Assembly (NCBI GenBank): GCA_009695285.1
Contig: SIBH01000005.1
Location: forward strand, 1 to 38,267
Reading direction: 5' to 3'
DNA length: 38,267 nucleotides
Origin: Pedosphaera sp.
GTDB lineage: Bacteria > Verrucomicrobiota > Verrucomicrobiia > Limisphaerales > SIBH01
Below, in pieces: positions 11,618 through 27,578 of this stretch (position 1 is the stretch's first letter; every line of letters begins with the position of its first letter). The translations under genes were made by a program, and so were the position numbers. The notes beneath the pieces are model-generated. The model saw only the letters and a program-made list of their open reading frames with translations. It was not told the origin of the DNA and did no database searches.

Positions 11618-12658
<1,041 letters not shown>

Positions 12659-12750: not shown

Positions 12751-12766
12751 AGCAGGGTGAATGCCA
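12751..12766 (-). promoter_or_regulatory. predicted sigma54 (RpoN) promoter of glnA
   Basis: Minus strand TGGCATTCACCCTGCT. The -24 GG (12765-12764) and the -12 GC (12753-12752) are exactly ten bases apart, and TGGCA and TGCT agree with the consensus TGGCACG-N4-TTGCW. Expected start of transcription is about 12740, giving a leader of about 80 bases to ATG 12658. The same type of site precedes glnK. Confidence 0.75.
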
Positions 12767-13031: not shown

Positions 13032-14234
13032 ATGTTGAAAATCAAAGACACGCTCCGGGCGACGGTGAACCTGACCTTCGATGGCCGGGTGGTGAAGGTT
13101 TACCACGGGCCGGATGCCCTGGCGCGGTTCGCCAGCGAGGTGCGCGTCCTGCGCTATCTCGAAATGCGCGACTGCCCGTTTGTCCCGCGTCTGCTCGACG
13201 CCGACGCGGAAAAAGTTCGCATCATCACGACTAATTGCGGCAGCCGCGTGGAGCATCTGGATGCAGCGCGCACCAAGGAGTTGTTCGCCGAGTTGGAAAA
13301 GTTCGGCGTGCGCCACGATGATCCGGACATCCGCAACGTCACCTATCGCCCCAAGGACGGGCGGTTTTGTCTGATCGATTTTGAGTTTGCCGCCATTCTG
13401 CCCGACGCGCCCATGAAACCACGCCCGGAAATTTCCAATACTCTCACCTGGTCCGGACTCTCGGATGTCGGCCGGGTGCGGCAGAACAACGAGGATTCCT
13501 TTGTCGGAATGCGTTTTGACGCGCATGAGATTCACCGCCTGGGCAAACACGGCGACGCCACGACCGGCGCGGCGAATTTTGTCTTCGCCGTGAGCGACGG
13601 CATGGGCGGCGCGAAGGCCGGCGAGTTTGCCAGCAACATCGCCGTCGAGAAAATCACCACCCTCCTGCCGAAATCATTTCGCAAAAACACGGCCGGCGGC
13701 GATGACGCGGTGGCGAAGGTGTTGACAAAGTTGTTTCGCGAGATTCACGGCCAGTTGGTTTATCTCGGCAATTCCTACGACGAATGCCACGGCATGGAGG
13801 CCACGATGAGCCTGTGCTGGTTCTCGCCGGGTCGCGTCTTCTTCGGCCACGTCGGCGACAGCCGCATCTATCATCTGCCGGCCGGCGCGGCTGAAATCAA
13901 ACAACTCACGCAGGACGACACCCACGTGGGCTGGCTCTTGCACCACGGTCAGATCACGGAATACGAGGCCCGCACGCACCCGCGCCGGAACGTGCTGCAA
14001 AAGTCGCTCGGCGGCGGGAATCAATTTGTTGATCCGCAGGTCGGCGCCGTCGCCTGCGAATCCGGCGACATCTTTCTCCTCTGCACGGACGGACTGACCG
14101 AAGGGCTATTCAACGGACACCTAGCGGAAATGCTCCAAGCGAAGGATCAGAACATTGCCCGAACCCTCGTCGAGACGGCGGTGAAAAACGACGGCCGCGA
14201 CAACACCACGGCGCTGGTGATTCAAGTTGTATGA
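13032..14234 (+). CDS. minimal protein-kinase-like domain fused to PP2C phosphatase
   Basis: A 400-residue cytosolic protein. Residues 1-125 carry the kinase signature in compressed form: Lys22 in VVKVY (beta3), Glu36 in SEVRVL (helix C), HDDPDIRN at 95-102 matching HxDxxxxN (Asp97, Asn102), and IDFEF with Asp116 in the DFG position. There is no clear Gly-rich loop and almost no C-lobe: about 20 residues follow before the next domain. Residues 139-400 are a PP2C Ser/Thr phosphatase: SDVGRVRQNNEDS (metal Asp155), VSDGMGG (Asp189), GHVGDSR (Asp276), CTDGLTE (Asp353) and GRDNTT (Asp390). A bifunctional switch, or a phosphatase with a pseudo-kinase regulator, are both possible. ATG 13032 is chosen because the upstream in-frame extension has no domain character. 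It is separate from the glnA unit. Confidence 0.9.
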   Translation: MLKIKDTLRATVNLTFDGRVVKVYHGPDALARFASEVRVLRYLEMRDCPFVPRLLDADAEKVRIITTNCGSRVEHLDAARTKELFAELEKFGVRHDDPDIRNVTYRPKDGRFCLIDFEFAAILPDAPMKPRPEISNTLTWSGLSDVGRVRQNNEDSFVGMRFDAHEIHRLGKHGDATTGAANFVFAVSDGMGGAKAGEFASNIAVEKITTLLPKSFRKNTAGGDDAVAKVLTKLFREIHGQLVYLGNSYDECHGMEATMSLCWFSPGRVFFGHVGDSRIYHLPAGAAEIKQLTQDDTHVGWLLHHGQITEYEARTHPRRNVLQKSLGGGNQFVDPQVGAVACESGDIFLLCTDGLTEGLFNGHLAEMLQAKDQNIARTLVETAVKNDGRDNTTALVIQVV

Positions 14235-14391: not shown

Positions 14392-17300
14392 ATGAACAAA
14401 CTGTTTTTGTCCGTCATCGTCGCGCTGTTGAGTTTTTCGGCCGCCGCCCGGGCCGACTGGCTCGCGTTCATCGATCAGATGCGCGGCCCGGCCACGAGCA
14501 ACCACGTCACCGCGTTAGATCTGGTCGTGGCCGACGGCGCCCGGCTGACCAATGTGCTGACCGGCACCGCGCTGACGGCGGGGTTCAGCGTGGCCCGCGC
14601 CGGGACGGTCAGCTATTCGACCGTCATGAGCGATCCCGACGCCGGCACCCCGGCGCACCAGGCCTTCAACGGCTTTATCGACTTCACCGGCAGTCCGTCC
14701 GGCCAGAACGGGTTCCGCTTGTACAACTCGCTCGGCGCCGTCTGCACGCTGACGTTCACCAATCTTGATCCGGCCCGGCGCTACCACTTCGCCGCCACCT
14801 CGGTGCGCGGCGCGCTTTATCCCATCCGCTGGACCGCGTGCGTGCTCCAGGGCGCGGACGCGTTCATCGAGGCGCACACCTCGGGCTGCATCACCAACGG
14901 CGATCCGCGCATCGCGCCGGGCACGATCACGAACGGCCAGGTCGCCTTCAACACGGGCAGCAACTCGGTGAACGGCGATCTCATCCAGTGGCGGCAAATC
15001 AATCCCGGCGCGGACGGGCGGTTCTCTGTGCAGACGGAGCAGTGGCTCGGGGCCATTCCCGGCGGCACGGCGGGAGACAGTTACTCGTACGGGCTGACCG
15101 CGATCCGAATCGAGGAGATCACCGTGAACAGCCCGCCCACCGTTTTCCTCACCAGCCCCGACAACAATTCCAGCGTCAACGTCACCTCGAACGTCGTCAT
15201 CACCGCCGTGGCCACCGACCCCGGCGGCACCGTCACCAACCTCGCCTTCTACACAAACAACGTCCTCCTCGCGGACGACTCCGCCAGTCCCTACAGCGTG
15301 ACCGTCTCGAACCTGCCCGCCGGGATTCACCTGCTCACCGCCGTGGCCGCCGACAACACCGGTCTGCTCGCCACCTCCGCGCCGGTGCGTCTCGTGGTCC
15401 TGCCGCCCGGCAACCTCGTCGGCGCGGCCGGCTATACGAATGCCTTCAGCACCCTGCCCGCCGCCACCGCGTGGTCCACGATCACCAACGGCGGCAGCGC
15501 CGGCACGATCACCACCCCGGCCGGCCTCGACAGCACGGTGCAAACGAATCTCGCCGCCGCCATTCGCGGCGGCCTGGTTTCCGGCTCCGGAAATCCCGCC
15601 GCCCAGGGCGTCGCCGCCGTCTGGAGCAGTTCGGGTTTTCTCCAGACCAGCCCGCTCACCATCGGCTATGTCAGTCTCCTAGGCACCTTCGTGAACAACT
15701 CCGGCGCCGACGCGGCGGCGGTCCGGGTCAGCTACAGCTTCTTCACCAATGCCATCGTCGAAACCCTGCCCACGCAGGGCGTCTATTACAGCCTCACCGG
15801 CGCGACCGGCAGTTGGACCCGCCTGCCCGCGCTGTCCTTTCAGCCGGGCGGCACGCCGGACGCGGTCGTCACGCTCTCGTCGCCCTGGGCCTACGGCAGT
15901 CGGCTTTACCTGCTCTGGGCCGACGCGAACTTCTCGAACACCGACATGATCTGCCAGCTCGACAACTTCTCGCTCACCCTGGTCAACTCCCTCGCCTGCT
16001 CGATCACCAATCCGCCCGGCGGCGCTTCCTTCGAGCAGCCGGCGAACATCCCGCTCGGCGCAGCCGCCGGCGGCCTGGCCGCGATCACCAACGTCAGTTT
16101 CCTCACCAACGGCTTCACGGTCGGCCAGGTCATCGCCAGTCCCTACACGCTCGTCTGGAGCAATGCCCCCCTCGGCGGTCATGCGCTCACCGCCATCGCC
16201 ACCGACCTCACGGGCGCGCGCGCCACTTCCGCGGTCGTCAACATCACGGTCACGCCGCCGGTCACGAACACCGTTCCACCCGTCCTCGCCACCGTTGTTC
16301 CGACGCGCGGCGTCGTCCTCGCCAGCCTCACTTCCATCCAAATCATCTTCAGTAAGCCCGTCTCCAACGTGGATGCCGCCGACCTGCTCGTGAACGGCGT
16401 GCCCGCCACCGGCCTCAGCGGGGGCGGATCGAACTACACCTTCACCTTCCCCCAGCCGCCGATCGGCGCGGTCGCCATCACCTGGCCGACCGGCCACGGC
16501 ATCCTCGACCGCGGCAATCCTCCCCTGCCCTTCAATGAAACCGCCACCAACGCCACATGGACTTATTCGCTGGTGGACAGCACGCCGCCCGTCGTCGTCG
16601 CCCAGTTGCCCGCCACCGGCGCCACGCTTTCGAATCTCACGTCCCTTCAAGTCACCTTCAGCGAGAGCATGGCGAACGTGGACGCCGCCGACCTCCTGGT
16701 GAACGGCGCGCCCGCCGTCGGACTCGGCGGCGGCGGATCGAGCTACACGTTCGCCTTCTCACCGCCCGCGCCCGGCCTGGTCAACATCACTTGGGCCGGC
16801 GGACACGGCCTCACCGACGTTTCCGGCAATCCCTTCAACAGCGTCGGCGCAGGCGCGACGTGGAGCTACTCGCTGCAGTCGCCGGTCGTCACGCTCATCG
16901 CCAGCAACAGCGTCTGGCGTTACTTCAAGGGACTCAGCGAAGCCTCCTCGCCCGCCACCGCCTGGCGCGCCACCGCCTTCAACGCCGCCGCGTGGCCCAC
17001 TGGGCCGGCAGCCTTCTTCTACGGCGCCGACCCTTACACCGGCACCGTGCTCAACGACATGGTCAACAATTACACGACCGTCTTCCTGCGCCAGCAGTTC
17101 ATCGTCAACTCGCCCTCCGCCCTCTCGAACCTGGTGGTGAACGTGCAGGTCGATGACGGCGCAATCGTGTGGATCAACAACACCGAAGTCGTCCGGCTCC
17201 GAGTCGGGGCCGGCGAGATTCCGTTCAATGAACTTGCCAGCCAGAACGCTCCCGAGCAATTCGCCGGCGGCGCGGTTTGGTCAACATTCAACCTCGCCAA

Positions 17301-20300
17301 TCCGCAGGCCTTCCTCGTTGCCGGCACCAACACCATCGCCATCCAGGCGCTCAACGTCTCCCTCGCCGGCAGCAGCGATTTCGGCATCGACGCCTTCGTC
17401 ACCGCCGAACTCTCCGACCCTGGCACGCTGCCACCCACCATTCTCACCCTGAATCCCCCGGCCGGGACGGTCTTCGCGCTCACCAATATCACCGTCACCT
17501 TCAGCAAGCCCGTCGCGAACGTGGATGCCGCCGACCTGCTCGTGAACGGCGTGCCCGCCACCGGCCGGGCCGGCGGCGGCGCGAGCCACACCTTCAGCTT
17601 CGCGTCGCCCGCCTACGGCAACGTCGCCCTCACCTGGACTGCGGGCCACGGCATCACCGACACCAACGCCGCGCCGCTCGCCTTCAACGCCACCGCGCCC
17701 GGCGCGACCTGGCAATACACGCTCCTCAACCCGAGCACGCCCGCGGTCAGTTCGCAGACGCCGCCCGCCAGCAGCACGATCAACGCGCTCACGCAGATTC
17801 AAGTCACCTTCAGCGAACCCGTGACGAACGTGAACGCCGCCGACCTCCTCATCAACGGCGTGCCCGCCGGCGGCCTCGCCGGCACGAACGCGAATTACAA
17901 CTTCACCTTCCCGCCGCCCGCCTTCGGCAACGTCGCTGTCACCTGGGCCGTCAGCCACGGCATCACCGATCTCGAAATTCCAGCCAACGCCTTCGCCTCA
18001 TCGGCCGCCGGCTCGACCTGGTCCTACACGCTCGCGGATCAGATGCCGCCCGGCGTCGCCGCGCAGAATCCGCCCGCGGGCGCGAGTGTGACCAACCTTA
18101 CTTCGCTCTCCGTGACCTTCAGCGAACTCGTGACCGGGGTGAACGCCGCCGACTTCCTCATCAACGGCGTGGCCGCGACGGGACTGGGCGGCAGCGGCTC
18201 GAATTACACCTTCACCTTCGCCCAGCCCAACACCTCCGTGCTCAACGTCGGCTGGGCCGCTGGCCACGGCATCGCCGACGCCGCCGCGAATCCTTTCAAT
18301 GCCGGTGGCGTCGGCGCGACCTGGCAATACTTCACGCCAGACAATCTCCCGCCCGCCGTCAGCACCATCAGCCCGCCGCCCGGCGCGACCGTGCGCGACC
18401 TCACCCAGGTGCAGGTGACCTTCAACGAGCCGGTCCTCGGCGTGAACGCCGCCGACCTGCTCATCAACAGTGTCCCGGCCACGAACGTGACCGGCTCGGC
18501 GGCCGGCCCATACACCTTCCTCTTCAGCCAACCCGTGACCGGCGCGGTGGAAATCATCTGGGCCGCCGCCCCGGGGATCACGGACCTCGCCTTGCCGGGG
18601 AACGCCTTCGAGGGCGGCGCGTGGAGCTACGTGCTGAATCCCGACGCCGTCTTCGCGGCCAAGGTGCTGATCAGCGAAATCATGTACCTGCCGCCGACCA
18701 AGGGCACGAATGACGAATGGATCGAGTTGCGGAACATCGACACGGTGCCGGTGAACCTGAACGGCTGGCGCTTCAGCAAGGGCGTGGTTTTCACCTTCCC
18801 GAAAGTGACCATTCCGGCGGGCGGCCATCTCGTCATCGCGGCCAGCACCAATTCGTTCCGCGCCAAATATCCGGCCGTGACGAATTACGTCGGGCCGTGG
18901 CTCGGCAGCCTGGCTAACAACGGCGAGAGCATCCGGCTGGAAACCGCGCTGGGCGAGATCGTGAACGAGGTGAGCTTCGCCTCGGAAGGTGACTGGGCGG
19001 TGCGCCAGCGCGGACTGCCCGACGGCGGCTTCCGCGGCTGGGTCTGGGCGAGCGCGGCCGACGGCTTCGGGCCGACGCTGGAGATGATCAACCCGGCCCT
19101 GCCCAACCAGCATGGGCAGAACTGGCGCGTGAGCACAGCGCCTAACGGCACGCCCGGCGCGGCCAATTCCATCGCCAGCACGAATGTCCCGCCGCTCGTT
19201 CTCGAGGTGGCGCACTTCCCCGTGGTGCCGCGCTCGACTAATCCGGTGACGGTCACGGCCAAGATTCTGGACGAGCGCACCAATGGACTGGCGGTCACGC
19301 TTTTCTATCGCAACGCCTCCACCGTCACTCCGCCCGCCTTCTCCGAGTTGGCGATGTTCGACGACGGCGCGCACAACGACGGGGTGAGCAACGACCAAGT
19401 CTGGGCCGCGACCATCCCGGTGCAGGCGGACAAGACGATCCTCGAGTTCTACGTGCGGGCCGTGGACGCGGACAACAACACCAATCACTGGCCGGCCGTG
19501 GCGTACGCCGCGCCGGACCAGGGCGGCGCGCGGCTCACTCCCGAGACCAGCGCCAACGCGGTCTTCCAAGTGGACGACACGGTCTATGTTTTCTCGCAGC
19601 CGCAGTACCGGTTGACCATGACGGAGCAGGAGCGGCAGGAGCGTTTTGTCAGCACCGGCAACGCGGAGTTCAACGGCACATTCATCTCCAGCGACGGCAC
19701 GGGCATCGAGGCCCGCTACAACGCCAGCTTTCGCGAGCGCGGCAACGGTTCGCGCGGCGCGGAGCCGGCCAATCAGCGGGTCAACATCCCGACGGACCGC
19801 CTCTGGAAGGGCCAGCGCGAGTTCAACCTCAACACGCGTTACACCCACGCCCAATACGCCGCCTACCTCCTTTCGCGGAAAGCCGGGATGGACGCGGAAT
19901 GGGCGCAGATCGTGCGCGTTTACATCAACGGCACCAACAGCGCGAGCAGCGGCCTGCCGCAGTTTGGTTGCTACATCCATGTCGAGGCGCCGGGCAGTGA
20001 AATGGCCGCCGCGCACTGGCCCCTCGACAGTGACGGCAATGTCTATCGCATCTCCAGCGGCGGTCATGCGGCGACCCTGGCCGCGCACCAGCCGCCCACG
20101 GCCGCGAACTACATCAACCTCGGCTACGTCAAGGCCTCCAATTCCGCCGAGAACGACTACTCGGACCTGACCAACCTGACCTACGTGTTGAACGTGGTGC
20201 CCAACGCGACCTACGAGGCGGAGGTGCGTGCCATCGTCAACGTGGACGCCTGGCTCACCTACTTCGCCGTCAACTCCCTCCTCGAAAACAGCGAGACTTC

Positions 20301-23300
20301 CATCGGCAGCGGCGTCGGGGACGACTCCGGCCTCTATCATGCCTTCGGGGAAAACAAGTGGTACTTCATCGCGCATGACCTGGACACGGTGCTGGGCCAA
20401 GGCGACTCGGCCGGCAACACCAGCGAGAACATTTTCATCGCGGCCAATCTCGCCTCGATCAACCGCTTCCTGCACTGGCCGGCCTTCGAGGCGGCGTACT
20501 ACGCCAAGCTCCGGCAGCTTTGCACGACGGTGTTCTCCCCCGGCGAAGTGGCGAAGACGCTGGACGAAGGACTGGGTTCCTTCACGGCCACGGGAAACAT
20601 TCAAGCCATGAAGCAGTTCAACACCAACCGCGTCGCCTACATTCTCTCGCAACTGCCGCCAGACCCGAACGCGCTCTACGTGGCGGCCACGAACCTCGGC
20701 GGCGGCCTCGGTGCGAACACCGTGCTCGCCTCGTCCAACGTGAATTACTTCATCACCAGCAGCCTCACCATCTCGAACGGGGCCACACTCACCATCCAGC
20801 CCGGCGTCAACGTGCGGCTCGCCGCCGGTGCGAACCTCACCGTGGCCAGCGGCGGACGGCTCCTCGCCGAAGGCACGGCCGCGCAGCCCATCCTCTTCAC
20901 CCGGAGCGGCGGCGCCAACTGGGGCCGCATCATCATCAACGGCGCCGTCGGCTCGCCCGAAAGCCGCCTCGCCTACGCGCGCCTCGAGTTCAACGCCACG
21001 AGCACGACCACCCCGGCCATCGAGGTCGCAGCGGGGACGGCGGTCCTGGACCACCTGACTTTCGGCAACACCGCGTCGCCCTACATCCGCGTCGATGGCG
21101 CGTCCTTCGTGATCAGTCATTGCGAGTTTCCGACGACGACCGCGTCCTTCGAGCCGGTGCATGGCACGGGCGGCATCAAGACGGGCGGGCGCGGCATTTT
21201 TTATCGCAACTGGTTTGGCCGGCCTAACGGTAACAACGACGTGGTGGACTTCACCGGCGGCAACCGCCCCGGCTCGCCCATCGTGCAGTTCCTCGACAAT
21301 GTTTTCACGGGCAGCGACGACGACCTCCTCGACCTCGACGGCACCGACGCCTGGGTCGAGGGCAACATTTTCCTGCACGCGCATCGCAACGGCTCGCCCA
21401 ATTCCGCGAGCGCCGTCAGCGGCGGCAACGACAGCGGAAACACTTCTGAGATCACGATCATCGGCAACATCTTCTACGACGTGGACCAGGCGGCGACGGC
21501 CAAGCAGGGAAATTTCTACACCTTCCTGAACAACACCGTGGTGCATCAGAGCGGCTCGGGTTTCGGCGACGCGGGCGTGACGGCGGTGCTGAACTTCGCC
21601 GACGATGATATCGCACCGGCGCGGGGCATGTTGGTCGAAGGCAACATTCTTTACGACCTCGAGCGGCTCACGCGCCATGTGACCAACGGCACGACCGTGG
21701 CCAGCAACACCACGTTCATCGGCAACTTGATGCCGCTCGCGTGGGCCGGCCCCGGCGCCTCGAACTCGACCAACCCGCCGGTCTTCCAGTATGTGCCCGC
21801 GCTGGCCGAGACGACCAACTTCACCAACTGGGCCTCGGCGCAGATTCTCCGCCAGTGGCTCAGTCTCCAGCCCGGCTCGCCCGGCCTCGGCGACGGCCCG
21901 AACGGCTGCGATCAGGGCGTCATTCCCATCGGAGCCACCGTGGCCGTGGGCGCGGGCGCGACGACGAATGACGCGACGTTCACCGTGGGCCTCCACCGCA
22001 CCGGCGGCGTCATCACCGCCTCGGGCGGATTCCCGAACGGCTCGGGCTACACGCATTACAGGTGGCGGCTCGACGGCGGGGCGTGGAGCGCGGAGACGGC
22101 GGCGGGCACGGTACTGAACCTTCCCGGTTTCCGCAGCGGCCCGCACCGGCTCGACCTCAGCGGCCGGCGCGACACCGGCACCTGGCAGGACGACGCGGAC
22201 TCCGGCGAACTGGCGCTGGTCACCTCGGTGTTCAACGGAAGCGCGCAGCAGGTGCGGATCAACGAGGTGCTGGCCAGCAACGGCTCGTCCATTCCACACG
22301 AGGGCACCCACCCGGACGTGATCGAACTCCACAACCCCGGCGGCGCGGCGGTGGACATTTCGGGACTGCGCCTCACGGACAACTTCAGCAACCCGGACCG
22401 GTTCAGCTTCCCCACCGGGACGATGATTCCGGCGGGCGGTTACCTCCTGGTCTATGCGAACAACGAGGACGGCACCTCGGGCCTCCACACCGGTTTCACG
22501 TTGAACAAGGACGGGCAGTCGCTCCATCTCTACGACGCGGTGGCGCGCGGCGGGGTGCTGCTCGACACGGTGACGTTCGGGTTGCAGTTGACAGATTTTT
22601 CGGTGGGCCGCTTCGGGACGAACTGGGCGCTCTGCACGCCCACGGCGGGCGGGCCGAATCTGCCGGCGGCGACGGGGCCGGCGCAGGGGTTGGTGATCAA
22701 TGAAATCCTCGCCGCGGAGCTGACGGCGTTCCCGGATGATTTTGTCGAGCTGTTCAATCCAGGTGCGTGGCCGGTGGCGCTGGCGGGTTTGTTCTTCACG
22801 GATAATCCGGCGCACTGGCCGGATCGCAGCCCGGTGCCAGCGCTGACCTACCTGGGCGCGGGCGGCTATCTCGCGTTTCGCGCGGATGGCCGCACCAACC
22901 TGGGCGCGGACCATCTGAACTTCTCCCTCGAAGCGGAGCGCGGCCTAGTCGCGCTGTTGCACCCGGATTATTCGGTAATTGATTGCGTCCTCTACGGCCC
23001 GCAACGGACGGACGTCTCGCAGGGCCGGGTAGTGAACAATGTTTACGACAACAACTTCTTCACCACGCCGACGCCGGGCGCGCCGAATCCGGGAATCATC
23101 TCGACGAACTCCGGCGTGGTGCTGAACGAAATTCTCGCCGCCAACAGCACCATCACCGAACTGGACGGAAGCACGCCGGACTGGATCGAGCTCTACAACC
23201 TGGGCGCGACCAACTTTGGCCTTGGCGACTACAGCCTGTCGGATGATTCGCTGCTGCCGCACAAGTATGTCTTCGCGCCGGGCACCATCATCGCGGGCCA

Positions 23301-25389
23301 CAGCTACCTGCGGCTGCGCTGTGACGGTTCGCTGCCGCCTTCGTCCACGAATACCGGGTTCAACCTCAAGGCGGAGGGCGGGAGCGTTTACCTGTTCGAC
23401 CGCCCAGTCGGCGGCGGCGCGCTGCTCAACGCGGTGACGTATGGCTTGCAGGCGGTGGACTTCTCGATCAGCCGCGTACCCAACGGAACCGGCGTCTGGG
23501 CGCTGACCTTGCCGACACCAGGCGGCGCGAGCCTGCTCGCGGCGACGGCGAACACCGCCTTGGTGAAGGTGAACGAGTGGATGGCCAATCCGGACGCAGG
23601 CGAAGATTGGTTCGAGCTGTGGAATCCCAACAACCAACCGGTGGCCGTCGGCGGCTATTTCACGACGGATGATTTGAACAACCGCACCAAGTCGCCCATC
23701 CCTGCGCTCTCCTTTCTCGGCGCGAGCACGAACGGCTACCAGCGTTTCTGGGCGGACAGCCTGCCGGCCAGCGGCGCCAACCACGCGAGCTTCAAGTTGA
23801 ACAACGGCCCGGCAGGCGAGTCGGTCGGATTCGCGAACCCGTCCGGCACCCTGGTTGATTCCATATCTTACGTGGCGCCGGCGGCGGGCGTGTCCGAGGG
23901 ACGCTTCCCGGATGGCAGCGCGACCATCGCGCTCTTCCCCGGCACCGGCTCGCCGGGCGACGCCAATTACCTGCTCCTCACCAGCGTCGTCATCAACGAG
24001 GCGCTGTCGCACACCGACCCGCCGCTGGAGGACGCCATCGAATTGCGCAACCTGACGGCGGCGCCGGTGGACATCAGCCACTGGTGGTTGAGCGATGCGA
24101 AAAACTCCCTGCGGAAATACCGGATCACGAACGGCGTGACCATTCCGCCCCACGGCTACGTGGTCTTCTACGAGCACCAGTTCAACAGCGACCCGTCGAA
24201 CAACGTGCGGGCCTTCTCGCTCAACTCGGCGAAGGACGACGACATCTTCCTCTCGACCGGCGGCACGAACGGCAACCTGACCGGCTACCGCACCACCGTG
24301 GATTTCGGCGCGGGGGCCAACGGCGTCTCCTTCGGCCGCCACGTCACCAGCGACCAGCGGCAGGAATTCGTGGCCCTGAGCACGCGCTCCTTCGGCCAGG
24401 ATGATCCCGGCACGCTGGCCGAATTCCGCACCGGCACCGGCCTGGCGAATCCCTACCCGAAAGTCGGCCCGGTCGTCATCTCGCGCATCATGTATCACCC
24501 GCCCGACGTCGGCACGAACGACAACACGCTCGACGAATACCTCGAGTTGAAAAACATCACCGGCGCGACCGTGCCGCTCTTCGATCCGGCGGCGGCCACC
24601 AACACCTGGCGTTTGCGCGACGCCGTGGACTTCAACTTCCCGCCGGGCGTGTCGCTCCCCGCCGGCGGCCAGCTCGTGCTGGTCAGCTTTGATCCGGTCA
24701 ACAATCCCGGCCAGCTCGCCGCCTTCCGCGGCCTTTACGACCTCGCCACCGGCGTGCCCGTCCACGGCCCCTACAACGGCAAGCTCGCCAACAACGACGA
24801 CCGGGTGGAACTCTCCCGGCCCGACAGCCCGAACCTGGGCGACGTGCCCTACCTCCTCGTGGACCGCGCGCATTACCGCGACCTGCCGCCCTGGCCATCC
24901 GCGGCGGACGGCACGGGCCTGGCCCTCCAGCGCGTCAGCCTCACTGGCTTTGGCAACGACCCGACCAACTGGCTCGCGGTGGCGGCCACCTTTGGCGGCG
25001 TGGTGGACACCGACGGCGACGGCCTGCCCAACGCCTGGGAACTCGCCTACAACCTGAACCCGAACAGCGCCCTCGACGCGAACCTCGACGGCGACGGCGA
25101 CGGGTTGACGAACTTGCAGGAATACTTCGCCGGCACCAGCCCGCTCGATCCGTCGAGCACGCTCCGCGTCCAGGCGGCCTCCACCGGCCTGGCCGGCGCC
25201 ACCAACGCCGTGCTTCACTTCGAGGGCGTGGCTGGGAAATCCTACACGATCCAGTTCACCCCCGCGCTGCCCGGCGGTTGGTCGAACCTCGCCAGCACCG
25301 GCCCGCTCCCCGCGTCCGGCCCGAGGTGGTTCACGAACCAGTTGCCGCCCGGCACGCCGCAGCGGTTCTACCGCGTCCTCACGCCGTAG
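14392..25389 (+). CDS. giant secreted lamin-tail / CotH kinase / beta-helix protein
   Basis: A 3665-residue protein with a Sec signal (MNKLFLSVIVALLSFSAAARA). Approximate order: N-terminal beta-sandwich (20-245); Ig-like (247-340); jelly-roll-like (345-535); Ig-like (537-628); Ig-like Big_5/SbsA-type repeats 1-2 (629-830); galactose-binding-like (832-1013) with VDDGAIVWINN; repeats 3-6 (1014-1418); lamin-tail domain 1 (1425-1590); Ig-like (1600-1720); CotH kinase (1728-2093) with FRERGNGSR, REFNLNTRY, WLTYFAVNSLLEN and AHDLDTVLGQGD; right-handed parallel beta-helix (2094-2490); lamin-tail domains 2-7 starting near 2621, 2767, 2909, 3057, 3198 and 3361; a DTDGDGLPNAWE / DGDGDGLTNLQE calcium-type repeat pair (3538-3590); and a C-terminal beta domain ending FYRVLTP. 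No membrane anchor, LPXTG or PEP-CTERM was seen. Probably a surface or secreted adhesin-like protein. The start has no Shine-Dalgarno sequence. Confidence 0.93.
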   Translation: MNKLFLSVIVALLSFSAAARADWLAFIDQMRGPATSNHVTALDLVVADGARLTNVLTGTALTAGFSVARAGTVSYSTVMSDPDAGTPAHQAFNGFIDFTGSPSGQNGFRLYNSLGAVCTLTFTNLDPARRYHFAATSVRGALYPIRWTACVLQGADAFIEAHTSGCITNGDPRIAPGTITNGQVAFNTGSNSVNGDLIQWRQINPGADGRFSVQTEQWLGAIPGGTAGDSYSYGLTAIRIEEITVNSPPTVFLTSPDNNSSVNVTSNVVITAVATDPGGTVTNLAFYTNNVLLADDSASPYSVTVSNLPAGIHLLTAVAADNTGLLATSAPVRLVVLPPGNLVGAAGYTNAFSTLPAATAWSTITNGGSAGTITTPAGLDSTVQTNLAAAIRGGLVSGSGNPAAQGVAAVWSSSGFLQTSPLTIGYVSLLGTFVNNSGADAAAVRVSYSFFTNAIVETLPTQGVYYSLTGATGSWTRLPALSFQPGGTPDAVVTLSSPWAYGSRLYLLWADANFSNTDMICQLDNFSLTLVNSLACSITNPPGGASFEQPANIPLGAAAGGLAAITNVSFLTNGFTVGQVIASPYTLVWSNAPLGGHALTAIATDLTGARATSAVVNITVTPPVTNTVPPVLATVVPTRGVVLASLTSIQIIFSKPVSNVDAADLLVNGVPATGLSGGGSNYTFTFPQPPIGAVAITWPTGHGILDRGNPPLPFNETATNATWTYSLVDSTPPVVVAQLPATGATLSNLTSLQVTFSESMANVDAADLLVNGAPAVGLGGGGSSYTFAFSPPAPGLVNITWAGGHGLTDVSGNPFNSVGAGATWSYSLQSPVVTLIASNSVWRYFKGLSEASSPATAWRATAFNAAAWPTGPAAFFYGADPYTGTVLNDMVNNYTTVFLRQQFIVNSPSALSNLVVNVQVDDGAIVWINNTEVVRLRVGAGEIPFNELASQNAPEQFAGGAVWSTFNLANPQAFLVAGTNTIAIQALNVSLAGSSDFGIDAFVTAELSDPGTLPPTILTLNPPAGTVFALTNITVTFSKPVANVDAADLLVNGVPATGRAGGGASHTFSFASPAYGNVALTWTAGHGITDTNAAPLAFNATAPGATWQYTLLNPSTPAVSSQTPPASSTINALTQIQVTFSEPVTNVNAADLLINGVPAGGLAGTNANYNFTFPPPAFGNVAVTWAVSHGITDLEIPANAFASSAAGSTWSYTLADQMPPGVAAQNPPAGASVTNLTSLSVTFSELVTGVNAADFLINGVAATGLGGSGSNYTFTFAQPNTSVLNVGWAAGHGIADAAANPFNAGGVGATWQYFTPDNLPPAVSTISPPPGATVRDLTQVQVTFNEPVLGVNAADLLINSVPATNVTGSAAGPYTFLFSQPVTGAVEIIWAAAPGITDLALPGNAFEGGAWSYVLNPDAVFAAKVLISEIMYLPPTKGTNDEWIELRNIDTVPVNLNGWRFSKGVVFTFPKVTIPAGGHLVIAASTNSFRAKYPAVTNYVGPWLGSLANNGESIRLETALGEIVNEVSFASEGDWAVRQRGLPDGGFRGWVWASAADGFGPTLEMINPALPNQHGQNWRVSTAPNGTPGAANSIASTNVPPLVLEVAHFPVVPRSTNPVTVTAKILDERTNGLAVTLFYRNASTVTPPAFSELAMFDDGAHNDGVSNDQVWAATIPVQADKTILEFYVRAVDADNNTNHWPAVAYAAPDQGGARLTPETSANAVFQVDDTVYVFSQPQYRLTMTEQERQERFVSTGNAEFNGTFISSDGTGIEARYNASFRERGNGSRGAEPANQRVNIPTDRLWKGQREFNLNTRYTHAQYAAYLLSRKAGMDAEWAQIVRVYINGTNSASSGLPQFGCYIHVEAPGSEMAAAHWPLDSDGNVYRISSGGHAATLAAHQPPTAANYINLGYVKASNSAENDYSDLTNLTYVLNVVPNATYEAEVRAIVNVDAWLTYFAVNSLLENSETSIGSGVGDDSGLYHAFGENKWYFIAHDLDTVLGQGDSAGNTSENIFIAANLASINRFLHWPAFEAAYYAKLRQLCTTVFSPGEVAKTLDEGLGSFTATGNIQAMKQFNTNRVAYILSQLPPDPNALYVAATNLGGGLGANTVLASSNVNYFITSSLTISNGATLTIQPGVNVRLAAGANLTVASGGRLLAEGTAAQPILFTRSGGANWGRIIINGAVGSPESRLAYARLEFNATSTTTPAIEVAAGTAVLDHLTFGNTASPYIRVDGASFVISHCEFPTTTASFEPVHGTGGIKTGGRGIFYRNWFGRPNGNNDVVDFTGGNRPGSPIVQFLDNVFTGSDDDLLDLDGTDAWVEGNIFLHAHRNGSPNSASAVSGGNDSGNTSEITIIGNIFYDVDQAATAKQGNFYTFLNNTVVHQSGSGFGDAGVTAVLNFADDDIAPARGMLVEGNILYDLERLTRHVTNGTTVASNTTFIGNLMPLAWAGPGASNSTNPPVFQYVPALAETTNFTNWASAQILRQWLSLQPGSPGLGDGPNGCDQGVIPIGATVAVGAGATTNDATFTVGLHRTGGVITASGGFPNGSGYTHYRWRLDGGAWSAETAAGTVLNLPGFRSGPHRLDLSGRRDTGTWQDDADSGELALVTSVFNGSAQQVRINEVLASNGSSIPHEGTHPDVIELHNPGGAAVDISGLRLTDNFSNPDRFSFPTGTMIPAGGYLLVYANNEDGTSGLHTGFTLNKDGQSLHLYDAVARGGVLLDTVTFGLQLTDFSVGRFGTNWALCTPTAGGPNLPAATGPAQGLVINEILAAELTAFPDDFVELFNPGAWPVALAGLFFTDNPAHWPDRSPVPALTYLGAGGYLAFRADGRTNLGADHLNFSLEAERGLVALLHPDYSVIDCVLYGPQRTDVSQGRVVNNVYDNNFFTTPTPGAPNPGIISTNSGVVLNEILAANSTITELDGSTPDWIELYNLGATNFGLGDYSLSDDSLLPHKYVFAPGTIIAGHSYLRLRCDGSLPPSSTNTGFNLKAEGGSVYLFDRPVGGGALLNAVTYGLQAVDFSISRVPNGTGVWALTLPTPGGASLLAATANTALVKVNEWMANPDAGEDWFELWNPNNQPVAVGGYFTTDDLNNRTKSPIPALSFLGASTNGYQRFWADSLPASGANHASFKLNNGPAGESVGFANPSGTLVDSISYVAPAAGVSEGRFPDGSATIALFPGTGSPGDANYLLLTSVVINEALSHTDPPLEDAIELRNLTAAPVDISHWWLSDAKNSLRKYRITNGVTIPPHGYVVFYEHQFNSDPSNNVRAFSLNSAKDDDIFLSTGGTNGNLTGYRTTVDFGAGANGVSFGRHVTSDQRQEFVALSTRSFGQDDPGTLAEFRTGTGLANPYPKVGPVVISRIMYHPPDVGTNDNTLDEYLELKNITGATVPLFDPAAATNTWRLRDAVDFNFPPGVSLPAGGQLVLVSFDPVNNPGQLAAFRGLYDLATGVPVHGPYNGKLANNDDRVELSRPDSPNLGDVPYLLVDRAHYRDLPPWPSAADGTGLALQRVSLTGFGNDPTNWLAVAATFGGVVDTDGDGLPNAWELAYNLNPNSALDANLDGDGDGLTNLQEYFAGTSPLDPSSTLRVQAASTGLAGATNAVLHFEGVAGKSYTIQFTPALPGGWSNLASTGPLPASGPRWFTNQLPPGTPQRFYRVLTP
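16366..16414 (+). repeat. 49-bp exact direct repeat, copy 1
   Basis: Starts at AACGTGGATGCC and ends at CACCGGCC. It is identical over 49 bases to 17518-17566 and encodes the NVDAADLLVNGVPATG core of Ig-like repeats 1 and 3. Confidence 0.9.
17518..17566 (+). repeat. 49-bp exact direct repeat, copy 2
   Basis: Identical to 16366-16414, displaced by 1152 bases. The flanking sequence diverges at once on both sides. Confidence 0.9.
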
Positions 25390-25708: not shown

Positions 25709-27196
25709 TTAACCGTGGTAGCCTTCTTCGCCGTGTTCGGCCACGTCTAGACCAGTGGTCTCGACTTCCTCGCTGACCCGCAGACCAGTGACGGCCTTCA
25801 CGATGTAGGCGATGACGGCCGTGCCCACGACGGCCAGCACTAGGGTGATGCCGATGGCCTTCACCTGCTCCATCCACAGGCCGTTGCCGACCAGTTGGAA
25901 GAGTCCGTTGGCTTTGGCGTAGGTGTTGGCGTCGGTGAGGTTGGAGTTCACGCTGCTCGTGGCCAGGAAGCCCGTCATCAGCGCGCCGAGGGTTCCGCCG
26001 ACGGCATGGACGCCGAAGGTGTCGAGCGCGTCGTCATAGCCGAACCACGCCTTGAGCTTGAGCACGGCGAAGAACGGAATGATGCCCGCCGCCACGCCGA
26101 TGATCATCGCCCCCGTGGCGTCCACGAAACCGGCCGCCGGGGTGATCACCACCAGGCCGGCGACCGCGCCGGAGCAGAAACCGAGGATGCTGGGCTTGCC
26201 ACGGAAGATGTATTCCGCCATGGCCCACACGAAGGCCGCCACCGCCGCCGCCAGCGTGGTCGTCATGAAGGCGTTCGCCGCCACGCCGTCCGCCGCCACT
26301 GCGCTGCCCGCGTTGAAGCCGTACCAGCCGACCCACAACATGCCGGTGCCGATCATGCACATCACCATGCTGTGCGGCTGCATCGATTCCTTGCCGAAGC
26401 CCAGGCGCTTGCCGAGGATGATGCAGAGGATCAAGGCCGACCAACCCGAGGACATGTGGACCACCGTGCCGCCCGCGAAATCAATCGCCTTGATCTTCGC
26501 GTCACCATTCCAGACGCCGTTCATCAGGCCGTCCACGCCCCACACCATGTGCGCGAGCGGGAAATAAACCACGAACATCCAGAGCGTGACGAAGAGCAGG
26601 ATGGCCGAGAACTTCATGCGCTCGGCAATCGCGCCAATGATCAGCGCGGGCGTGATGATCGCGAACATCATCTGATACATCGCGAAGACGTTCTGCGAGA
26701 CCCATCCCGCGTAGTCCGTGTTGGGCATGGAGTCCACGCCCTTGAGGAACGCAAATTTCAGGCTGCCCAGATAGGGACTGCCGCTGGCAAAGACTAGGCT
26801 GTAGCCCACGAGATACCAGAGAATCGTCACCAGGCCGGCGATGCCGAGGCATTGCGCGAGCACGGAGAGGATGTTTTTCTTGCGCACTAGGCCGCCGTAG
26901 AACAGCGCCAGGCCGGGCAGGGTCATGAACAGCACCAGCGCGGCGCAGATCATCATGAAGCCGTTGTGGCCGGGGCCGGGGCCCGCGATCTTGGACGGCG
27001 CATTGGTGTTGCCACCGCGCGCGCCGTTGTTCATGTAGGCTTCGAGGTCTTCGATGCGCTCACGGTCGGACCGATCCGGAGGCGCGGCCGGGGCCGCCGG
27101 GGCGGCGGGAGCGGCCGGCGCGTCAGCGGCGCGGACGGTCAAGACACCCGCGACCAGCACGGCCAGCAGGGAGAGGGAGAGGAATAGTTTTTTCAT
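25709..27196 (-). CDS. amt: ammonium transporter Amt
   Basis: Inner-membrane trimeric ammonium channel feeding glutamine synthetase. The 495-residue protein begins with a signal peptide (MKKLFLSLSLLAVLVAGVLTVRA), a PAAP-repeat linker and a short acidic helix. The 11-helix Amt core follows, starting FMMICAALVLFMTLPGLALFYGG. Family residues are present: the pore-His segment TVVHMSSGWSAL and the second conserved His in FGVHAVGGTLGAL; MKFSAILLFVTLW and GWYGFNAGSA also match. The C-terminal tail (GLRVSEEVETTGLDVAEHGEEGYHG) matches the conserved cytoplasmic tail involved in PII gating. ATG 27196 is preferred over an in-frame TTG at 27208 because it opens a normal signal peptide. It lies 37 bases after glnK in the same transcript. 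Confidence 0.97.
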   Translation of the reverse strand: MKKLFLSLSLLAVLVAGVLTVRAADAPAAPAAPAAPAAPPDRSDRERIEDLEAYMNNGARGGNTNAPSKIAGPGPGHNGFMMICAALVLFMTLPGLALFYGGLVRKKNILSVLAQCLGIAGLVTILWYLVGYSLVFASGSPYLGSLKFAFLKGVDSMPNTDYAGWVSQNVFAMYQMMFAIITPALIIGAIAERMKFSAILLFVTLWMFVVYFPLAHMVWGVDGLMNGVWNGDAKIKAIDFAGGTVVHMSSGWSALILCIILGKRLGFGKESMQPHSMVMCMIGTGMLWVGWYGFNAGSAVAADGVAANAFMTTTLAAAVAAFVWAMAEYIFRGKPSILGFCSGAVAGLVVITPAAGFVDATGAMIIGVAAGIIPFFAVLKLKAWFGYDDALDTFGVHAVGGTLGALMTGFLATSSVNSNLTDANTYAKANGLFQLVGNGLWMEQVKAIGITLVLAVVGTAVIAYIVKAVTGLRVSEEVETTGLDVAEHGEEGYHG

Positions 27197-27233
27197 TTTT
27201 TGGTTCAATTAAGGTTTGAGTGGTTGCGGTGGG

Positions 27234-27578
<345 letters not shown>

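Follow-up and report, generated by a model that had tools for sequence, protein, structure and literature searches.

A truncated kinase paired with a PP2C phosphatase and linked to a GlnII-type glutamine synthetase in Verrucomicrobiia

The Pedosphaera sp. DNA analysed here (contig SIBH01000005.1, 38,267 nucleotides; hereafter the window) contains at 13032-14234 of the forward strand, from the ATG at 13032 to the stop at 14234, an ORF for a 400-residue protein in which a strongly reduced kinase is fused to a PP2C phosphatase (Table 1). We believe that this protein unites in one chain the two parts of a regulatory module, a minimal and, judged from its sequence, probably catalytic kinase and an opposing PP2C, and that the pair may control nitrogen assimilation by reversible Ser/Thr phosphorylation, the neighbouring glutamine synthetase (GS) being the first candidate target. 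We give this reading a probability of about one half. Its strongest clue, absent from the initial annotation of this DNA, is the link to a GlnII GS. The pairing of a kinase with a PP2C is of a known kind; for the truncated kinase and its GS link, no description was found in the open-licence literature.

Table 1. Position, strand and main traits of the kinase/PP2C gene and of the nitrogen-related features in the window
Feature	Position	Strand	Remarks
Mini-kinase domain, residues 1-123	13032..13400	+	Gly loop missing from the N-lobe; hinge and a single C-lobe helix present; HDDPDIRN as catalytic loop and DFE as metal loop; activation segment and alphaF-alphaI absent
Linker, residues 124-136	13401..13439	+	In-frame ATG at 13413 matches the PP2C start codon of relatives in which PP2C is a gene of its own
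PP2C (PPM) phosphatase domain, residues 137-400	13440..14234	+	Metal-binding motifs DGMGG, GDSR, DGL and GRDN conserved
GlnII-type glutamine synthetase (GS)	11618..12658	-	Divergent from kinase; 373 bp start to start
Sigma-54-like promoter TGGCATTCACCCTGCT	12751..12766	-	108 bp upstream of GS start, directed at GS
Ammonium transporter (Amt)	25709..27208	-	3665-aa gene between Amt and PP2C; in many relatives Amt lies shortly downstream of PP2C
PII protein GlnB	27234..27572	-	T-loop with both Ser49 and Tyr51

The residue numbers of the initial annotation are correct for this ORF; an upstream in-frame TTG would give 484 residues, and almost all homologues begin at the ATG equivalent to 13032. That annotation had proposed a kinase fold of about 125 residues and had named structure prediction as a possible refutation. 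The AlphaFold model of residues 1-123, built on a 96-row alignment, is kinase-like (pLDDT 94.6, pTM 0.88), and Foldseek matched it to kinases with a probability of 1.00 (244 PDB matches at E<=0.001). The predicted N-lobe consists of strands 2-6, 10-14 and 19-24, helix C at 29-45 and strands 54-58 and 63-67, and the predicted C-lobe remnant of one helix (78-89) and two strands (103-106 and 111-114) flanking the catalytic and metal loops. In the alignment, HDDPDIRN is the counterpart of HRDxKxxN and DFE that of DFG, and the kinase stops directly after subdomain VII: as the annotation had expected, there is nearly no C-lobe, and DFE118 is followed only by a short strand and the linker. The five catalytic residues that it had listed (Lys22, Glu36, Asp97, Asn102 and Asp116) lie at the positions given and, like P52, H95, R101, T104, Y105 and E118, are invariant in all 96 aligned homologues, against a mean column identity of 64%. 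The motif HxD...RNxTY was present in 138/138 distinct homologues, the catalytic motif being H-(D/E)-D across the mini-kinase family. Two details had to be amended. The Gly-rich loop, previously called unclear, is in fact absent, since the beta1-beta2 turn (residues 7-9) carries no glycine and lies within an invariant K5-x-T7-x-R9 (R9 in 95/96), and the distance from the hinge (C69-G70) to H95 of HxD is about 25 residues and not 28. The single helix in this interval, 78-89, shows that alphaD is missing.

Members of the protein kinase-like (PKL) superfamily share ten key residues, and nine of these are each missing from at least one family (Kannan et al. 2007, PMC1821047). The mini-kinase keeps seven of them, K72, E91, P104, H164, D166, N171 and D184 in PKA numbering (K22, E36, P52, H95, D97, N102 and D116 here), and lacks G52 of the Gly loop, H158 (by count, Glu89 stands there) and D220 (there is no alphaF). 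Because nine of the ten are dispensable among PKL families, these three losses do not exclude membership, and the mini-kinase is a PKL member outside every named family. A sequence search against the PDB gave no significant match for the kinase. In the Foldseek comparison the top match was the archaeal RNA kinase Ark1 (8yv5, E 4e-7, TM 0.72), followed by Kae1-Bud32, PRPK and RIO1/2, and the NCBIfam profile arch_bud32 (TIGR03724) matched weakly, with 19.5 bits against an equivalog cut-off of 125. The mini-kinase shares with Bud32/PRPK, RIO and KdoK the small size, the Lys/Glu/HxD/N/D catalytic set and the fold match. However, it has 125 residues instead of the approximately 220-230 of the matched PRPK chains, it lacks the P-loop glycine, alphaD, alphaF (D220) and the later helices, and its partners are a PP2C and a GS, whereas those of Bud32 and RIO are Kae1 or the ribosome.

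The PP2C half was also as predicted, complete and downstream of the kinase, with its first strand starting at residue 137 in the full-length model (pLDDT 93.9), in which the placement of the two domains is less certain (pTM 0.77). It belongs to the PP2C/PPM family (PP2C_2, 56.3 bits against a cut-off of 24), and the aspartates of DGMGG, GDSR, DGL and GRDN were found in 73/73 or 74/74 homologues. The Stp1_PP2C profile scored 183.5 bits, under its cut-off of 230, and the PDB sequence matches included PstP (2cm1) and 2J82, which we take to be the cyanobacterial PphA. A role as a defence system was considered and rejected, PADLOC having given no more than a weak match on the PP2C part. In systems of the PknB-PstP and PrkC-PrpC type the kinase and PP2C genes are neighbours, and the arrangement seen here resembles these Hanks pairs (Stp1/IreP family) in that a kinase adjoins a PP2C. 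Their kinases, however, are full-length and mostly membrane receptors, whereas the mini-kinase is soluble, minimal, sometimes fused and linked to GS.

Among relatives, mostly metagenome-assembled genomes, the kinase is usually a gene of its own of about 125-150 codons with the PP2C gene next to it. The kinase stop and the PP2C start overlap in an ATGA-type junction in 54/121 distinct loci and are otherwise often a few bp apart. The initial annotation had named failure of the two domains to co-occur in orthologues as grounds for refutation; PP2C adjoins or is fused to the kinase in 127 of the 136 assessable loci. It had also suggested a search for the same fusion elsewhere, and fusion was found, as a minority form, in 14/138 distinct loci, the window holding one of the fused forms. 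The kinase tree, although based on few alignment columns, indicates at least six changes of fusion state, and places the window, L022 and L023 in one supported group. Fusion in the same frame occurs in three further genomes (L022, L023 and L024), with the internal Met replaced in L023 and L024, which rules out a sequencing error of the contig. Since the junction in the window differs by a single base from the usual ATGA overlap, fusion is easily made. The idea of a one-chain kinase/phosphatase switch thus stands as far as a reduced kinase paired with PP2C is concerned; a rare fusion with repeated changes of state is not the essence of the system, nor its general mode. An ATP-sensor role for the mini-kinase, the other proposal of the annotation, is conceivable. 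The fused proteins of L023 and L024, two genomes placed in different families, do not differ over the part compared, by misbinning or recent transfer. In L103 the mini-kinase gene is not followed by PP2C, and the downstream region resembles the antisense of Amt. In one family (L167, L171-L177 and L239) the mini-kinase also lacks an adjacent PP2C, several copies adjoining, by eye, an MgtE magnesium transporter-like gene while PP2C remains by GS.

The constant neighbour of the module is GS. In 61 larger regions (the window plus 60, mostly of 9-17 kb), a divergent GS lay within 3 kb of the kinase in 52, Amt being present in 25 and GlnB in 22. Gene order varies within family f64: some genera (L168-L170 and L178) have kinase, PP2C and GS in this order on one strand, and in others (L304-L306 and L308-L310) the kinase lies beside an MgtE-like gene and PP2C is divergent to GS. 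Where the kinase has been relocated, PP2C still adjoins GS in 6/7 loci examined. The link extends to gene content. In a set of 80 genomes, GS was matched at E < 1e-150 in 52/52 genomes with the kinase and in 0/28 without it. Across 320 genomes of the order, 155 had the kinase and the close GS, 8 the kinase only, 4 the close GS only and 153 neither (Fisher p = 3e-75, a value that ignores the kinship of the genomes and therefore overstates their independence). Several of the 8 + 4 exceptions are incomplete genomes. Of the genomes scored as having neither, 29 gave GS matches of lower score. In one of these (G023) a close-type GS is split over contigs; the 15 full-length sequences examined (L279-L293) were 58-61% identical and formed a separate GlnII subgroup, which indicates that this class of GS does not generally depend on the kinase/PP2C pair. 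The neighbour GS scored 363.8 bits with the NCBIfam GlnII profile, under the equivalog cut-off of 500 and far above type I and III, and its best solved match was GS 4bax, followed by eukaryotic GS; by these sequence comparisons it is GlnII-like, in a subgroup of its own. S188, T237 and S303 are among the residues conserved in kinase-linked GS and not in the kinase-free subgroup, and are candidate phosphosites, only as a lead, since the two subgroups differ anyway.

A sigma-54-like TGG(C/T)A(C/T)-N4-6-(C/T)TGC(A/T) box directed at GS was found 89-128 bp upstream of this gene in 28/50 intergenic regions, against a mean of 1.15 and a maximum of 4 in equal-length pieces of the same loci. A GS controlled by sigma-54 is, as is well established, a typical feature of expression under nitrogen limitation (see also PMC12316311). 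In the window, Amt and GlnB lie about 11-13 kb past the end of PP2C. The product of the intervening gene (14392-25389, +), 3665 aa long, combines Ig-like repeats with five lamin-tail domains and carries a CotH kinase domain at residues 1781-2058.

The mini-kinase was detected in 163/320 genomes of the order to which the window belongs. When the phylum was sampled evenly, 81 matches were obtained, 78 in the same class (own genome included) and 3 outside it that were weak and different; the kinase/PP2C module belongs to the class Verrucomicrobiia. In another class of the phylum, a 456-aa frame (L160, from ~1633, +) has a distant kinase-like end (HRDMNRKN, DFEWA) that also stops shortly past the metal loop.

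Conserved catalytic residues, a fixed opposing enzyme and a constant GS partner are best read together as reversible phosphorylation in nitrogen assimilation. The module would act on one protein, of which the neighbouring GlnII GS is the first candidate, or else a protein regulating GS. Because the parts of the C-lobe that normally hold substrates are absent, substrate recognition by the kinase probably relies on docking to its partner, either PP2C or GS. Fold, invariant residues, pairing, recurrent fusion, GS linkage and co-occurrence, and the sigma-54-like promoter are computed results; from them we infer catalysis, substrate and direction of control, GS being the most economical substrate. 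Linkage and co-inheritance with GS are no proof of GS phosphorylation. Without alphaF-alphaI the mini-kinase may bind ATP and yet transfer no phosphate to protein, and the folds nearest to its model, those of RNA and ATPase kinases, count against the protein-kinase reading. The full version of our proposal, namely that a kinase of about 125 residues with no C-lobe past the metal loop is active and, with PP2C, reversibly phosphorylates GlnII GS, is tentative, and we incline somewhat against it.

A less probable explanation is that the mini-kinase regulates PP2C, by binding or hydrolysing ATP or by phosphorylating the PP2C, which would be the output and act on GS or on another protein phosphorylated by other kinases. 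A kinase truncated after DFE has no evident surface on which a foreign substrate could sit, its ATP and metal site is invariant, it is translationally coupled and recurrently fused to PP2C, and PP2C remains with GS where the kinase moves. Bud32, one of the fold neighbours, acts as an ATPase in KEOPS. However, the invariant set is the full catalytic one, including the catalytic-loop Asp and Asn, which goes beyond the needs of ATP binding, and throughout one sub-clade the kinase is unlinked from PP2C.

We regard it as improbable that the pair controls phosphorylation of PII (GlnB) on Ser49 of the T-loop, as occurs in cyanobacteria with PphA. The presumed PphA structure among the PDB matches would fit this proposal, as would the Amt and GlnB genes downstream in many loci, the window included. 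PphA is a PP2C, and the cyanobacterial PII kinase has not been firmly identified (PMC4285133, PMC10651672). The T-loop (RGSEY) retains Ser49; across L181-L217 and the window the whole loop is invariant, Ser49 and Tyr51 included. GlnD modifies PII on Tyr51, and full-length GlnD is present in nearly all genomes with the kinase. As controls, neither GlnD nor PII tracks the kinase in presence, a kinase-carrying genome (G465) having yielded no PII, and the constant neighbour is GS and not PII. We thus rejected PII-Ser49 as the main target, suggestive as the Amt-GlnB neighbours are. The two systems have in common a PP2C in nitrogen control; they differ in that no mini-kinase is known in the cyanobacterial one, and in the presence of GlnD and the constant partner GS here.

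That the mini-kinase phosphorylates a small molecule, like APH or Kdo kinases, PP2C being merely a co-regulated neighbour, is quite unlikely. The top Pfam match is APH (PF01636, 27.6 bits against a cut-off of 23.2), which each of the 96 aligned homologues also matches, and Kdo/WaaP comes next, but the aligned part covers residues 77-122 only (profile 151-199 of 239) and the C-terminal helical substrate part of APH is missing, as the chain stops after DFE and a short strand. Moreover, the kinase is paired and fused with a protein phosphatase in a neighbourhood without a product pathway. We give hardly any credence to an ArkI-type RNA kinase: Ark1 is the closest solved fold (8yv4, 8yv5) and the tRNA U47 kinase is likewise reduced, with DFE and a separate opposing enzyme, but ArkI has HGQ in its catalytic loop and retains, besides subdomains IX and XI, a YKR motif at the C-terminus (PMC9095486), whereas the mini-kinase has HxD, lacks all of these and has no C-terminal helix. 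ArkI acts on tRNA, and its eraser, KptA, is unrelated to PP2C, the protein phosphatase that partners the mini-kinase.

Type I glutamine synthetase is controlled by an adenylylation cascade, and we know of no dedicated covalent switch for bacterial GlnII. A conserved kinase and phosphatase that accompany GlnII throughout a whole bacterial class would supply such a switch. The mini-kinase also raises the question of the minimal fold for catalysis, for which a series of separate, overlapping, fused and relocated forms is at hand, and since complete single-contig genomes of the class carry the pair, an experimental test is within reach. If the full version of our proposal is true, nitrogen assimilation would be under a post-translational control of a new type, and the mini-kinase might be the smallest kinase fold that works.
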